This document shows, in pieces, positions 3,565-8,416 of a stretch of DNA of 11,371 nt. The notes beneath the pieces are model-generated. The model saw nothing but the letters and a program-made list of their open reading frames with translations. It ran no database searches and was not told the DNA's origin. The stretch comes from Acidobacteriaceae bacterium (GTDB taxonomy: Bacteria; Acidobacteriota; Terriglobia; Terriglobales; Acidobacteriaceae). The number at the start of each line of letters is the position of its first letter. The first letter of the stretch is position 1. The DNA is taken from assembly GCA_031296355.1 (NCBI GenBank), contig JARLFX010000125.1, positions 1 to 11,371 on the forward strand. Direction: 5' to 3'. A program made the position numbers and the translations under genes.

Positions 3565-5508
3565 TTATGGCCTGGCCGCCGGGAAGAGGTAATACGACGT
3601 GATATCGAGATTTGCAGCCAAAGGCGTTACTACAGGCTGCGCCAGCCCGATGAACTCCGTCAGGATATCGTTTCCGCCGCTGGACCCGGCGACCCACACG
3701 TTACCGCCGCCATCGACCGCAATGCTGTTCGTCGCGGAGGTAAGCATTGCGCTACTGGTAAAGCCGGTCGAGCTGCTCAGGACCGTGCCATTCGCGCTAA
3801 TTCCTGTCACACCACTGGCGTAGTTTGAGATCCAGGCGGTGCCAGCGCTATCCAATGCAATCGCATCGGGCCCATGCAGCCCGCCGCCCGTAATCGGCGA
3901 ATTCACAGAAGGATTGCCGTTGCTGTTCAGTTCGGTAACGGAGTCAGTGGCATAATCCGTTACCCAGGCATTGTCGTAGCTGTCCATTGCGATCGCGTAG
4001 GGGTTATACAGGCCGCCTCCGCTATAGGGTGAACCGGGGACTGCTACTCCGCTGCTGTTGAGTACGGTTACGGTACTGCCGCTGACTCCGCCGGCATTGG
4101 CGATCCAGGTGTTCCCAATGGCGTCGGTGGCAATTCCGGCAGGCACGTTGAGGCTGCTGTCTGTGAACGGAGAGTTCACAACCTCTGTGCCGTTCTTATC
4201 AAACACGGTGACAGAGTTGTTGCTATTTGTAAGCCAGACATTGTCAGAGCCGTCGATACCAATGCCGTCTGCCAGACCCAGGCTGCCAAAGAATGGCGAA
4301 CCCGACAGCGGGGCACCAGCGCTGGTGAATACACTTACGCCCGAGCTAATATCGTTATTCGTTACCCACACATTGCCTGAGGAGGCGATGGCGATCTTGT
4401 AGGGTGAGTTTAAACCACCGCCGGTAAAGGGCGATCCAGTGGCTAGTGCGCCCGCGCTGGTCAGCTTGGCAATGCTGTTGCTCCTGGCGTTTGCGATCAA
4501 GACATTGCCTACAGCATCAATCGCTATGGCATTGGGCTGGAGAAGAAAGCTGCCGGTAAAGTCAATCGCGATGCTGAAATCGTTTGGCTGCGCAGTGAGC
4601 GCGGGGCTAAAGGGTGGGGTCGGTGTGATGTTGCCGTAGAGCGCCGTCATTTGCGCGGCACCGGGGTAAGGATTGTGGGCAAAGTAGATTGCGGCGGTAG
4701 CCGTATCGGTTGCCGGGGACCCTGAGGCTCCGCCAGACAGCATATTGTTGAACAGCGTAGAGCAGCCTGTGGACGAGGGACTGGTGGAGTTGATGCAGGT
4801 GGCCAGAATGTTGGCCAGCGTGTTGATCACGAGGTGAGGAACCGCACCCAGGCCGCTGAGTGTGGTGCTGCGCGCCACGCCGGTGTCCAGGTCAGCGAGA
4901 TTTGCCGCGTTGGCAAAGGCGTTCTTTACGTCCACCAACGCCAGTGGCGAGGGGTTACTGGAAACATCGGTTGCGTCCGTTGCATATCCAGCCATGGCGT
5001 AGGCGGCAGCAATGGTGGATACCTCATCCATGAACACGAAGGGCGTTGCCGTTGCGAAGTTTCCGGAAGCGGGACAATCGCCAAGTATGGCGAGCAGGCT
5101 AATAGCGGAGTTTGCGTCCGCGGGATTGCCATCTGACGTGCCGCCAACCAGGTAGACGTAGACCTGCTGCGTGGGTATGCAGGCATAGTCGCCGTTGATG
5201 CTGAAATTGCCATGCGCATCCGTAACGACGTAGTAGTTGCCGTTCGTGTCCTGCCCGGAGCTGGTGGGATTGTTAGTTAGTACGCTGCTGTTGAGCAGGG
5301 AGTCAGAAGGGAGGCCATAGCCACCTTGACCTGCGGCATACAGATACACCAATCCACCAACGATGGGCTGCTGACCACCAAATGCGGTGCCGCGAAGGGC
5401 TACGCCGCGATCTGCAGAGGCTGGAGCTGTTGGAGTAAGGGAGCAGCCGGTAAGTAGGGGCACAAGTGCCAGGCACACAGCGAGGGGAATTCGCACGGTG
5501 GTCACCAT
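3565..5508 (-). CDS. Lipoprotein with seven NHL/Vgb-like propeller repeats
   Basis: This 647-aa secreted lipoprotein starts with signal peptide MVTTVRIPLAVCLALVPL and lipobox LLTGC, giving lipidated C22. Residues 30-130 look like a carboxypeptidase-regulatory or Ig-like fold (RGTAFGGQQPIVGGLVYLY and VVTDAHGNFSING). A helical middle region follows (STIAAAYAMAGYA, then VDVKNAFANAANLADL). From about residue 330 seven repeats occur, each like P-x-x-I-A-I-D-x-x-G-N-x-W-V-x-N followed by S-V-T-x-x-x-x-x-G. Seven repeats predict a seven-bladed beta-propeller. Some repeats resemble virginiamycin B lyase, but no catalytic role can be claimed. ATG 5508 is chosen because it directly precedes the signal peptide. 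A longer frame to 5739 would overlap the divergent gene at 5641 and hide the signal. Ribosome site is weak. Confidence 0.87.
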   Translation of the reverse strand: MVTTVRIPLAVCLALVPLLTGCSLTPTAPASADRGVALRGTAFGGQQPIVGGLVYLYAAGQGGYGLPSDSLLNSSVLTNNPTSSGQDTNGNYYVVTDAHGNFSINGDYACIPTQQVYVYLVGGTSDGNPADANSAISLLAILGDCPASGNFATATPFVFMDEVSTIAAAYAMAGYATDATDVSSNPSPLALVDVKNAFANAANLADLDTGVARSTTLSGLGAVPHLVINTLANILATCINSTSPSSTGCSTLFNNMLSGGASGSPATDTATAAIYFAHNPYPGAAQMTALYGNITPTPPFSPALTAQPNDFSIAIDFTGSFLLQPNAIAIDAVGNVLIANARSNSIAKLTSAGALATGSPFTGGGLNSPYKIAIASSGNVWVTNNDISSGVSVFTSAGAPLSGSPFFGSLGLADGIGIDGSDNVWLTNSNNSVTVFDKNGTEVVNSPFTDSSLNVPAGIATDAIGNTWIANAGGVSGSTVTVLNSSGVAVPGSPYSGGGLYNPYAIAMDSYDNAWVTDYATDSVTELNSNGNPSVNSPITGGGLHGPDAIALDSAGTAWISNYASGVTGISANGTVLSSSTGFTSSAMLTSATNSIAVDGGGNVWVAGSSGGNDILTEFIGLAQPVVTPLAANLDITSYYLFPAARP

Positions 5509-5628
5509 CCATTTGGTTGTCGCTGGGGAATGTACTGCTGGTGCGGAGCGGCAAGTGCCTAATCCTAGCAAACTAATGCGAATGCGCGAAGACAATTCGT
5601 AGTCTGGGTACACGGATGGGAAGCCCGG

Positions 5629-5634
5629 TAAAAT
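5629..5634 (+). promoter_or_regulatory. Candidate -10 placed for a leaderless transcript
   Basis: TAAAAT matches the -10 consensus at five of six positions and ends 6 nt before the ATG of the carbonic anhydrase homologue. No Shine-Dalgarno is present before that ATG. The spacing would place the transcript start at the start codon. No clear -35 is seen. Confidence 0.35.
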
Positions 5635-5640
5635 AGCCTC

Positions 5641-6159
5641 ATGATCCGTTCTTACCAGGGCATTACACCCACCATTCCCGATACCTGCTATACCGATATC
5701 TCTGCCCAGATTCTTGGCGACGTGCAGCTTGGCGAGCACTCCAGCGTATGGATGAATGCGGTTCTCCGCGGCGACGTGAATGCTATTCGCGTGGGCTCAC
5801 GCTCCAATGTGCAGGATTGCGCGGTGCTCCATGGCCAGCGCTATACCCACCCGGTTCAGATCGGCGACTGGGTCACGATTGGCCATAATGCGACGGTGCA
5901 TGGCTGCGTGGTGGAAGACGCCTGCCTGATTGGCATGGGCGCGGTCATTTTGAACGGCGCGCGGATCGGAGAAGGCTCCATCATCGCTGCGGGCGCGCTC
6001 ATCCCCGAAGGCATGCAAATCCCGCCCAATTCGCTGGTAACAGGCATCCCCGGCAAGATACGCCGCGCACTTGGCGATGAAGACCGCAAACTCATCCTGA
6101 TGTATGCGCAGAATTACCTGGACTACACGGCCACGTATTTGAAAGAGACAGCGGGCTGA
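5641..6159 (+). CDS. Gamma-class carbonic anhydrase family protein
   Basis: This 172-aa protein is a left-handed beta-helix trimer-type protein of the gamma carbonic anhydrase / PaaY / YrdA family. The hexapeptide-repeat pattern is clear (for example SAQILGDVQLGEHSSVWMNA and ACLIGMGAVILNGARIGEGS). The metal and active-site residues align: R43 and D45 (VLRGDVNAI), Q58 (SNVQD), and zinc ligands H64 (LHG), H82 (TIGHN) and H87 (TVHGC). Length and C-terminal helix (NYLDYTATYLKE) are typical. Retention of all three His ligands makes metal binding likely, but many members have no measured hydration activity and the cytosolic role is uncertain. It is divergent from the NHL lipoprotein, with 132 nt between. 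No ribosome site precedes the ATG. Confidence 0.94.
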   Translation: MIRSYQGITPTIPDTCYTDISAQILGDVQLGEHSSVWMNAVLRGDVNAIRVGSRSNVQDCAVLHGQRYTHPVQIGDWVTIGHNATVHGCVVEDACLIGMGAVILNGARIGEGSIIAAGALIPEGMQIPPNSLVTGIPGKIRRALGDEDRKLILMYAQNYLDYTATYLKETAG

Positions 6160-6877: not shown

Positions 6878-7207
6878 TTACTGCGTCTGCCACAGCTCCG
6901 CGAAGACGAACAGCAGCAGAAGCTCTGCCGTCAGGGCCATCTCCAACAGGGCCACCATGCTGTGCAGGTTCATCCACGATACCGGGTGGGTTGCCGCGAG
7001 AATCGCCAGCCCTGCCGTGAGCAGAAGAATGCAGAGATACGCCGCGGTCACGCCGTAATGCGTTACCCGGGCCGCCTTGCGCACGGGCATAGATGCAGCG
7101 ACACGGGCCGCGAAGTTTGCCGGGATCGCAACCTGGGGCTGCCGTTCGAGCGCTGCTGTCAGCATGGCTTCGAATTTTTGTTCATTTCTGTCGCCGGCGG
7201 TGTTCAT
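6878..7207 (-). CDS. Two-helix membrane protein, candidate anti-sigma factor
   Basis: This 109-aa protein has a soluble N-terminus of about 48 residues (EQKFEAMLTAALERQPQ, then VAIPANFAARVAASMP). Two membrane segments follow at about residues 51-73 and 83-103. Its ATG overlaps the stop codon of the ECF sigma gene (ATGA at 7207-7204), so the two are translationally coupled. This position and the small cytosolic domain before membrane helices are typical of membrane anti-sigma factors. The zinc anti-sigma motif HxxxCxxC is absent, so any sigma binding would be through a ZAS-less domain. Anti-sigma function is inferred from context only. Confidence 0.85.
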   Translation of the reverse strand: MNTAGDRNEQKFEAMLTAALERQPQVAIPANFAARVAASMPVRKAARVTHYGVTAAYLCILLLTAGLAILAATHPVSWMNLHSMVALLEMALTAELLLLFVFAELWQTQ

Positions 7208-7803
7208 AGGCTGTATCCCTTCTGCAACGTGTTGACTACGGCAATGCGTTGCGCTGAAGCTTGTCGTCTCATGCGCGCCCTGACGAGCTTACCCAGCTTT
7301 TCGCGTCCGCGGTGCAGATGCGTTCTAACAGTGCCGACGGGCAGCTTGAGCGCGAGCGCGATCTGCTCATAACTGCATTCTTCCTGATGATAAAGCACAA
7401 GCACGGCGCGTTCTGCGTCGCCGAGCTGCAACAGCTCCTCATCCACCGCCTGCCACATCTCTTTCTGCTCCAGCGTGGCCTCGGCATCGGGCGCGTCCTG
7501 GGGCAGGTTTTCGATCCAGTCTTCCTGCTCGGTATCAGGGTCGTAGACGGGGGTGGCGATGTTCTCGCGCTCTTTGCGGCGGCGCTTCCATTCATCCTGG
7601 GCCACATTCAATACGATGCGGTACAGGTAGGTGGAGATGAGGGCGTCGCCGCGAAAGTTCTCCAGTCCGCGGTACAGCCGCAAAAAGACCTCCTGCGCCA
7701 GGTCCTCCACGTTTTCGCGGTTGCCGGTCAGGCGCAGCAGGGTACGGAACACCTTTTGCTGGTGCTCTTGTACGATGGATTCGAATTGGGCTGCGGTATC
7801 CAA
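7204..7803 (-). CDS. ECF-family RNA polymerase sigma factor
   Basis: This 199-aa RpoE-like sigma factor directs RNA polymerase to specific promoters. Region 2 spans about residues 7-77: FESIVQEHQQKVFRTLLRL, then DLAQEVFLRLYRGLENFRG, then the -10-contacting STYLYRIVLNVAQDEWKRR. An acidic linker follows (residues 88-110). Region 4 spans 115-172, with helix-turn-helix SYEQIALALKLPVGTVRTHL and HRGREKLGKL. The start is TTG at 7803; an in-frame TGA lies 39 nt upstream, and no other start precedes FESIV. No good ribosome site is present. A predicted ECF-type promoter has its -10 only 7 nt before the TTG, so the transcript may be nearly leaderless. The gene is coupled to the anti-sigma candidate and is probably autoregulated. 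Confidence 0.95.
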   Translation of the reverse strand: MDTAAQFESIVQEHQQKVFRTLLRLTGNRENVEDLAQEVFLRLYRGLENFRGDALISTYLYRIVLNVAQDEWKRRRKERENIATPVYDPDTEQEDWIENLPQDAPDAEATLEQKEMWQAVDEELLQLGDAERAVLVLYHQEECSYEQIALALKLPVGTVRTHLHRGREKLGKLVRARMRRQASAQRIAVVNTLQKGYSL

Positions 7804-7810
7804 GGTCCGG

Positions 7811-7840
7811 TAAGACTGTAGTATCCGCCTTAAGTTTCAT
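7811..7840 (-). promoter_or_regulatory. Predicted ECF-type promoter of the sigma operon
   Basis: On the minus strand a -35-like ATGAAACTT (7840-7832) is followed after 16 nt by a -10-like TCTTA (7815-7811). GAAACTT with TC-rich -10 at 16-17 nt is the general ECF pattern, as for E. coli sigma-E (GAACTT / TCTGA). The same element occurs in mirror orientation on the plus strand. The expected transcript start falls at or just before the TTG codon at 7803. Confidence 0.65.
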
Positions 7841-7863
7841 GAAAATTTATGAAACTTAAGGCG
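7826..7863. repeat. 38-bp palindrome between divergent sigma and membrane-protein genes
   Basis: CGCCTTAAGTTTCAT (7826-7840) and ATGAAACTTAAGGCG (7849-7863) are perfect 15-bp inverted repeats around an 8-bp centre GAAAATTT. The centre itself is nearly symmetrical (only the outer G-T pair fails). No T-run follows on either strand, so this is not a standard terminator. Each arm read outward is the -35 region of a predicted ECF promoter. Confidence 0.9.
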
Positions 7864-7878
7864 CCCGTCTCAGTCTGA
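7849..7878 (+). promoter_or_regulatory. Predicted ECF-type promoter of the DUF6249-like gene
   Basis: ATGAAACTT (7849-7857), a 16-nt spacer, then TCTGA (7874-7878) on the plus strand. TCTGA is identical to the sigma-E class -10. The whole element matches its divergent partner as ATGAAACTTAAGGCG, seven free bases, then CAGTCT and a shared final A. A transcript from about 7885 would carry a 40-nt leader with AAGGAG before the ATG at 7925. Confidence 0.65.
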
Positions 7879-7924
7879 GGGGTCTAGAAAACGCTCCGGG
7901 TAAGGGGCCTAAGGAGATTTTGAG

Positions 7925-8416
7925 ATGAGCGATTGGTCAGGAAGTCCGTTTGTGGTTCCCATTGGGGCCTTCATCGCATGGTTTGGCGTGGTTGCGGTGA
8001 AGACAATTTCCAGGTATCAGGTCCGTAAGTTGCAGAGTCAGGAGCGTTTGGCGGCGATCGAGAAGGGATTGCCAGTGGCGCCGGAGGACCCCTCCATCAT
8101 AGAAAAGACGTTTGGCGAGCGTGAAAGCAGCCGCCCGTCGAACCCGCTGCGCCGTATCGGCTATCTGCGCACCAGCGGAATCGTCTGCATCTCGGTTGGC
8201 GTGGGTCTGGTGCTCTTTTTCATGGCGTTGGCGCATATCATCCAAGAGCACATGGTGCTTTGTGGCGCGGCTACCGGAATCATTCCGCTGGCCATCGGAG
8301 CCGGTTTGCTGCTGGATGCCCGCATGCAGGCTAACGCCCTGAAGGCAGACCAGGCGGCTGCGGCTCCAACGCCGGTTGAGCCCCCGGTCTATCCGCCGGA
8401 CTATCCGCAGCAGTAG
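7925..8416 (+). CDS. DUF6249-like three-helix membrane protein
   Basis: This 163-aa protein has a first membrane segment at about residues 9-27. A charged cytosolic-type stretch follows with RYQVRKLQSQERLAAIEKGL, the signature I associate with DUF6249-like proteins found near sigma factors in Acidobacteriota and Bacteroidota. Two further membrane segments lie at about 84-106 and 112-131. The tail is polar and Pro/Tyr rich (PPVYPPDYPQQ). AAGGAG lies 9 nt before the ATG. It is divergent from the ECF sigma operon and shares its palindromic promoter region, so it is a likely target of that sigma. The function is unknown; an envelope-stress role is inference. hisS follows after 36 nt. Confidence 0.87.
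   Translation: MSDWSGSPFVVPIGAFIAWFGVVAVKTISRYQVRKLQSQERLAAIEKGLPVAPEDPSIIEKTFGERESSRPSNPLRRIGYLRTSGIVCISVGVGLVLFFMALAHIIQEHMVLCGAATGIIPLAIGAGLLLDARMQANALKADQAAAAPTPVEPPVYPPDYPQQ

Follow-up and report, generated by a model that had tools for sequence, protein, structure and literature searches.

In Escherichia coli, sigma-E (RpoE) promoters have the consensus GGAACTT plus GTCNNA, and the phage lambda promoters PR and PRM are two complete promoters that stand back to back, with transcript starts about 80 bp apart. The promoter pair described here is very similar to the sigma-E promoters in its -35 element, -10 element and spacing, with GAAACTT at the -35 position, whereas it differs from PR/PRM, which use the housekeeping sigma factor, are dissimilar to each other and are under repressor control. 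Self-activation of an ECF sigma factor together with a divergent target has been described for RpoE7 (ECF16) of Sinorhizobium meliloti (PMC6180224), but that system involves other genes and another sigma group than ours, and the accessible part of the source describes no mirrored promoter geometry. ECF41 systems resemble this locus in that a conserved promoter motif lies at the sigma locus and the regulon is apparently a single transcript, but according to the excerpts of PMC3426412 their -35 element is TGTCACA, their sigma factor carries a fused regulatory extension, and less than 20% of their loci are divergent. In the bidirectional promoters of E. coli, the symmetry of promoter elements likewise yields divergent transcription, but in the portions of that study considered here both directions share one -10 element and the starts are mostly 18, 10 or 23 bp apart (Warman et al., PMC12825309), whereas our locus has two complete promoters that meet at their -35 ends and whose starts would lie about 80 bp apart. 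Thus, ECF self-activation with a divergent target and single-target ECF factors are known already, and, as far as the excerpts of these sources allow the comparison, what appears to be new is the joining of two complete promoters by their -35 ends and the unusually constant gap between them. No description of the mirrored ECF layout was found in the open-access literature, as judged partly from the openings of abstracts, and the same literature held nothing on DUF6249, the family of the divergent gene, beyond a plant gene family.

The promoter pair and its flanking genes

The window, which is the whole stretch of 11,371 bp that was analysed, contains two ECF-type promoters back to back at 7811-7878, each consisting of TGAAACTT, 15 nt and GTCTNA. 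On the sigma side (minus strand), the -35 element TGAAACTT occupies 7832..7839 and the -10 element GTCTTA 7811..7816; on the DUF6249 side (plus strand), the -35 element TGAAACTT occupies 7850..7857 and the -10 element GTCTGA 7873..7878, and all four elements are also seen in relatives, with the position of the sigma-side -10 element kept. In the plus copy, GAAACTT (7851-7857) is followed by 16 nt and TCTGA (7874-7878), and in the minus copy, GAAACTT (7838-7832) is followed by 16 nt and TCTTA (7815-7811), which confirms the two divergent ECF promoters with 16 nt between GAAACTT and TCT(G/T)A that the initial annotation had claimed; relatives keep both of them. The spacing from GAAAC to GTC is 17 nt in both promoters of the window. 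The GAAACTT cores are separated by 12 bp (7839-7850), not by the 8 bp given earlier for the -35 cores, which is the distance between the arms of a perfect inverted repeat (arms of 15 bp, 7826-7840 and 7849-7863, on either side of GAAAATTT). Perfect 15-bp arms no more than 20 nt apart occurred in 1 of 200 mononucleotide shuffles, and a looser ECF pattern matched nothing in the window besides these two sites. The two -10 elements are separate, which distinguishes the pair from a bidirectional promoter with a shared -10 element. Transcripts would be expected to start at about 7804 leftward and about 7885 rightward; an RNA hairpin formed by the repeat would not be expected, since both of these starts lie beyond it.

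The leftward promoter faces an ECF sigma factor gene (7204..7803, minus strand; 199 aa), which begins with TTG 7 nt past the -10 element. Its product scores 99.8 bits against TIGR02937 (cut-off 42.9) and matches PF04542 and PF08281 above cut-off, as is expected of an ECF sigma factor of the sigma70-ECF superfamily. An assignment to the RpoE equivalog (TIGR02939, 100.6 against a cut-off of 236.15 bits) or to the SigW equivalog (NF007223, 113.7 against 209) was rejected, as was a plasmid origin, since 647 plasmid records contained no close relative and all were below 60% identity. The sigma stop is overlapped by 4 bases by a 109-aa ORF with two hydrophobic stretches (6878..7207, minus strand; from the ORF list), whose product had no Pfam or NCBIfam match. 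Judging from its position and from matches in the counterparts of relatives, this ORF probably encodes an anti-sigma factor. An ORF downstream of the sigma gene could be picked at 63 of the 65 loci; most of these ORFs measure about 104-154 aa and contain one or two hydrophobic stretches, although some picks (such as L008, L009 and L124) look like wrong frames. An HxxxCxxC motif was counted by eye in nine of these ORFs, and when five of their proteins were compared with Pfam, zf-HC2 was above cut-off in one (L035, E 1.9e-7) and the other four had no match above cut-off. On the opposite side, a Shine-Dalgarno-like AAGGAG (7911..7916, plus strand) precedes the ATG of a gene for a 163-aa DUF6249 membrane protein (7925..8416, plus strand; PF19762, 38.6 bits, cut-off 33, E 1.1e-9). 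The view that one copy is directed toward an ECF sigma operon and the other toward a DUF6249-like gene is therefore in agreement with both the PF19762 and the sigma profiles. Elsewhere in the window, a long minus-strand ORF (3565-5739; 724 aa as listed) contains repeated motifs and resembles, by eye, a secreted beta-propeller-type repeat protein.

Conservation in relatives and the proposed circuit

Relatives were obtained by scanning a genome collection with an alignment of 30 sigma proteins, and from the larger number of loci that this gave, the 80 best were used (L001-L080). The near relatives among them (L001-L036; 44-74% identity in the best segment) were chosen blind to promoters and are labelled Acidobacteriota or with genera that we take to belong to this phylum, except L010, which is labelled Verrucomicrobia. 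A mirrored pair was present within 350 bp upstream of the sigma gene in 34 of the 36 near-relative loci, compared with 1 of 44 more distant ECF loci (L037-L080; gap 57) and 0 of 1435 random positions within L001-L036. In L003, the pair sits further upstream and has a 12-bp gap, which brings the total to 35 of 36; in L024, both DUF6249 and its promoter have been lost and the sigma-side promoter is kept. At the sequence level, the locus looks like an autoregulated ECF system, with a promoter of the sigma factor's own type before the sigma operon in the window and in all 36 sigma-found loci. In a separate draw, the sigma factor was detected at E<=1e-40 in 15 of 151 class genomes, all 15 of which were among the mirror-pattern matches. 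Scans for the mirror pattern matched 23 of 200 genomes and, class-wide, 34 of 399 against 4 of 399 for the reversed-pattern control; 3 of 30 loci fetched from the class-wide scan had no sigma match and are probably due to chance. The mirrored layout of the predicted promoters is kept in dozens of related bacteria, many of them Acidobacteriota. As a separate observation, the stretch that separates the promoter pair of L003 from its sigma gene contains a run of short imperfect repeats resembling AAGGCAAGAGCAAT.

The regulon suggested by pattern searches is very small. GAAACTT-N15-GTCTNA had 13 sites in six relatives, none of them outside the locus or, in Terriglobus roseus, its duplicate, against 3 for the reversed control, and TGAAACTT-N15-GTCNNA had 52 sites in 23 relatives, 42 at the locus and 10 elsewhere, against 12 for the reversed-pattern control. 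Because off-locus sites were no commoner than in the control, the regulon at this stringency would be one site with two transcripts per sigma factor. When only the mirrored -35 elements were searched for, in 12 genomes, three off-locus places were matched as well (G002, G009 and G010). DUF6249 matched once in each of the 23 genomes except T. roseus, which had two of the 24 matches; the PF19762 family cut-off was reached in 19 of the 23, and by coordinates every match (24/24) adjoins a mirrored pair. In T. roseus DSM 18391 (G008), the whole locus is duplicated (L192 and L193): the two copies align at 99.96% over 13,981 of the 14,001 bases retrieved, and the repeat extends to the end of the retrieved sequence.

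Our main reading, to which we assign a probability of roughly 0.85, is that the back-to-back promoters serve one ECF sigma factor, which would activate itself and one divergent gene in a local positive feedback. A membrane-bound anti-sigma factor would release the sigma factor, and the freed sigma factor would then drive transcription of its own sigma/anti-sigma operon to the left and of the DUF6249 membrane gene to the right; as these would be its only targets at strict matching, degenerate sites aside, the outcome would be a positive-feedback loop confined to the locus, with a single output gene. What comparison of the candidate promoters across relatives shows is their sequences, their orientation, the genes that they face and the usual 12-bp gap, while linkage suggests that this sigma factor, rather than another ECF factor, reads the pair. 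Activation by the sigma factor of itself and of the divergent membrane gene, as the initial annotation had proposed, is the natural reading of the relatives' promoters. Such a locus would be a compact natural regulon in which one sigma factor acts at a single site to give two transcripts, and because near-identical promoters would be read by the same sigma factor, it would provide a clean natural system for studying the mutual effects of back-to-back polymerases. It would also tie DUF6249, an uncharacterised membrane family, to an ECF pathway.

The 12-bp gap and the inverted repeat

Of the 35 sigma-found pairs, 27 have a gap of 12 bp, two of 11 bp, one of 13 bp, three of 18 bp, one of 24 bp and one of 26 bp. 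The gap was 12 bp in 53 of all 65 pairs, a biased count since the pattern-added loci had limited gaps. There is perhaps an even chance that the two promoters are independent and simply share an intergenic region, with the 12-bp gap inherited and functionless, which is consistent with the common descent of all loci and with the 8 of 35 sigma-found pairs (11, 11, 13, 18, 18, 18, 24 and 26 bp) in which the gap differs and the promoters are kept. However, the inner 10 bp of the gap (7840..7849 in the window), which in relatives show neither sequence conservation nor dyad symmetry, have drifted to 32% mean identity among 53 pairs while the length usually holds. Furthermore, in a quick tree made from 65 sigma proteins (those of L003 and of 64 of the 65 pairs, the sequence of L036 being too short), the gap required 10 changes compared with 23 for the distance from the -10 element to the first start codon, and departures from 12 bp were mostly at the tips or the base. 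As this tree has 19 open branches as well as some long branches, the comparison is suggestive only.

The alternative that the fixed gap couples the two promoters mechanically, so that their polymerases exclude each other, as in the either/or switch of the initial annotation, or help each other, is plausible but on balance less likely than not. The gap is exactly 12 bp in most of the unbiased pairs although its sequence drifts, and with starts about 80 bp apart, the upstream edge of one polymerase would lie near the -35 element of the other. However, longer gaps occur, and lambda PR/PRM, with similar spacing, can be occupied jointly. In E. coli, polymerases compete at promoters that share a -10 element, but in the part of that report available here direct clashes had no impact on separate divergent promoters (Warman et al., PMC12825309).

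The inverted repeat itself was evaluated by column scoring of 52 non-redundant pairs including the window, and by comparing the arms of 65 pairs after the loci from the class-wide scan were added. GAAAC, GTC and the 17-19 nt spacing were demanded by the search pattern, and their own conservation in the column tables is thus by construction. Beyond these, T before GAAAC was found in 52/52 pairs on the sigma side and 51/52 on the DUF side, the first T after GAAAC in 48/52 on each side, and the A closing GTCNNA in 51/52 and 52/52, respectively, and spacer columns 8-21 reached at most 0.63 bits on the sigma side and 0.77 bits on the DUF side. Over the 65 pairs, arm identity outside the -35 elements was at the shuffled level (273 against 266 +/- 12.5; 1531 of 5000 shuffles were as high), and the spacers of one locus were no more alike than spacers from different loci. 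The centre of the gap in the relatives' pairs had no dyad (74 of 265 against 73.7), and AAGGCG, by which the palindrome of the window is extended, was not conserved in relatives. A long palindrome was therefore rejected as a conserved feature, although in some loci the match counted from GAAAC is long (16 in L010, 13 in the window, 13 in L021, 12 in L016 and 11 in L007). The long palindrome of the window looks like a chance extension of the two -35 elements, and the idea that the pair is built from one palindrome is not supported, since relatives mirror the -35 elements only. A dimer operator would predict symmetry in the spacers and in the centre, and because none was seen, the elements are better read as promoters; gap changes to 18, 24 and 26 bp in distant lineages with intact promoters also argue against an operator. 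Despite the perfect 15-bp arms of the window taken by itself, the long runs in some loci and the usually constant gap, it is thus very improbable that a dimeric repressor or activator uses the inverted repeat as its operator and that the promoter likeness is incidental or secondary, because a dyad beyond the promoter elements around a fixed centre is not what the relatives have: their symmetry is at the shuffled level, their gap varies (up to 35 bp in L159, again with both promoters intact), their -10 elements are kept, and L024 retains a single half. Relatives that keep the palindrome and lose the -10 elements, which had been named beforehand as the outcome that would count against promoters, were looked for among the 36 sigma loci, and in 35 of these the pair retains its two -10 elements.

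The TTG start of the sigma gene

In the window, the TTG start of the sigma gene coincides with the expected transcript start (7801-7811, minus strand). At 38 of the 65 loci, a TTG located 5-7 nt past the A of GTCNNA is the first in-frame start codon after the -10 element, and some start codon lies within 9 nt past the -10 element in 48 of 65, with that of the other 17 further downstream. The optimal distance from the -10 element to the transcript start in E. coli is given as 7 bp in the excerpt of PMC12825309, and because the start codon lies at about this distance, the sigma message is probably leaderless, beginning at the start codon or a few bases from it. The locus would also allow translation that begins at a leaderless TTG to be tested. 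We put forward only tentatively the further idea that the 12-bp gap is a working part and that the TTG-led leaderless sigma message helps to set the gain of the loop. If true, two identical holoenzymes standing back to back would exclude or help each other and in this way tie the output of sigma and anti-sigma to that of DUF6249, with no further regulator, and the unusual translation from a leaderless TTG would help to set the loop gain. Five predicted sigma proteins (P0014, P0015, P0018, P0019 and P0037) begin with MKL, apparently at an ATG overlapping the -35 element, so that the predicted genes seem to run across the promoter.
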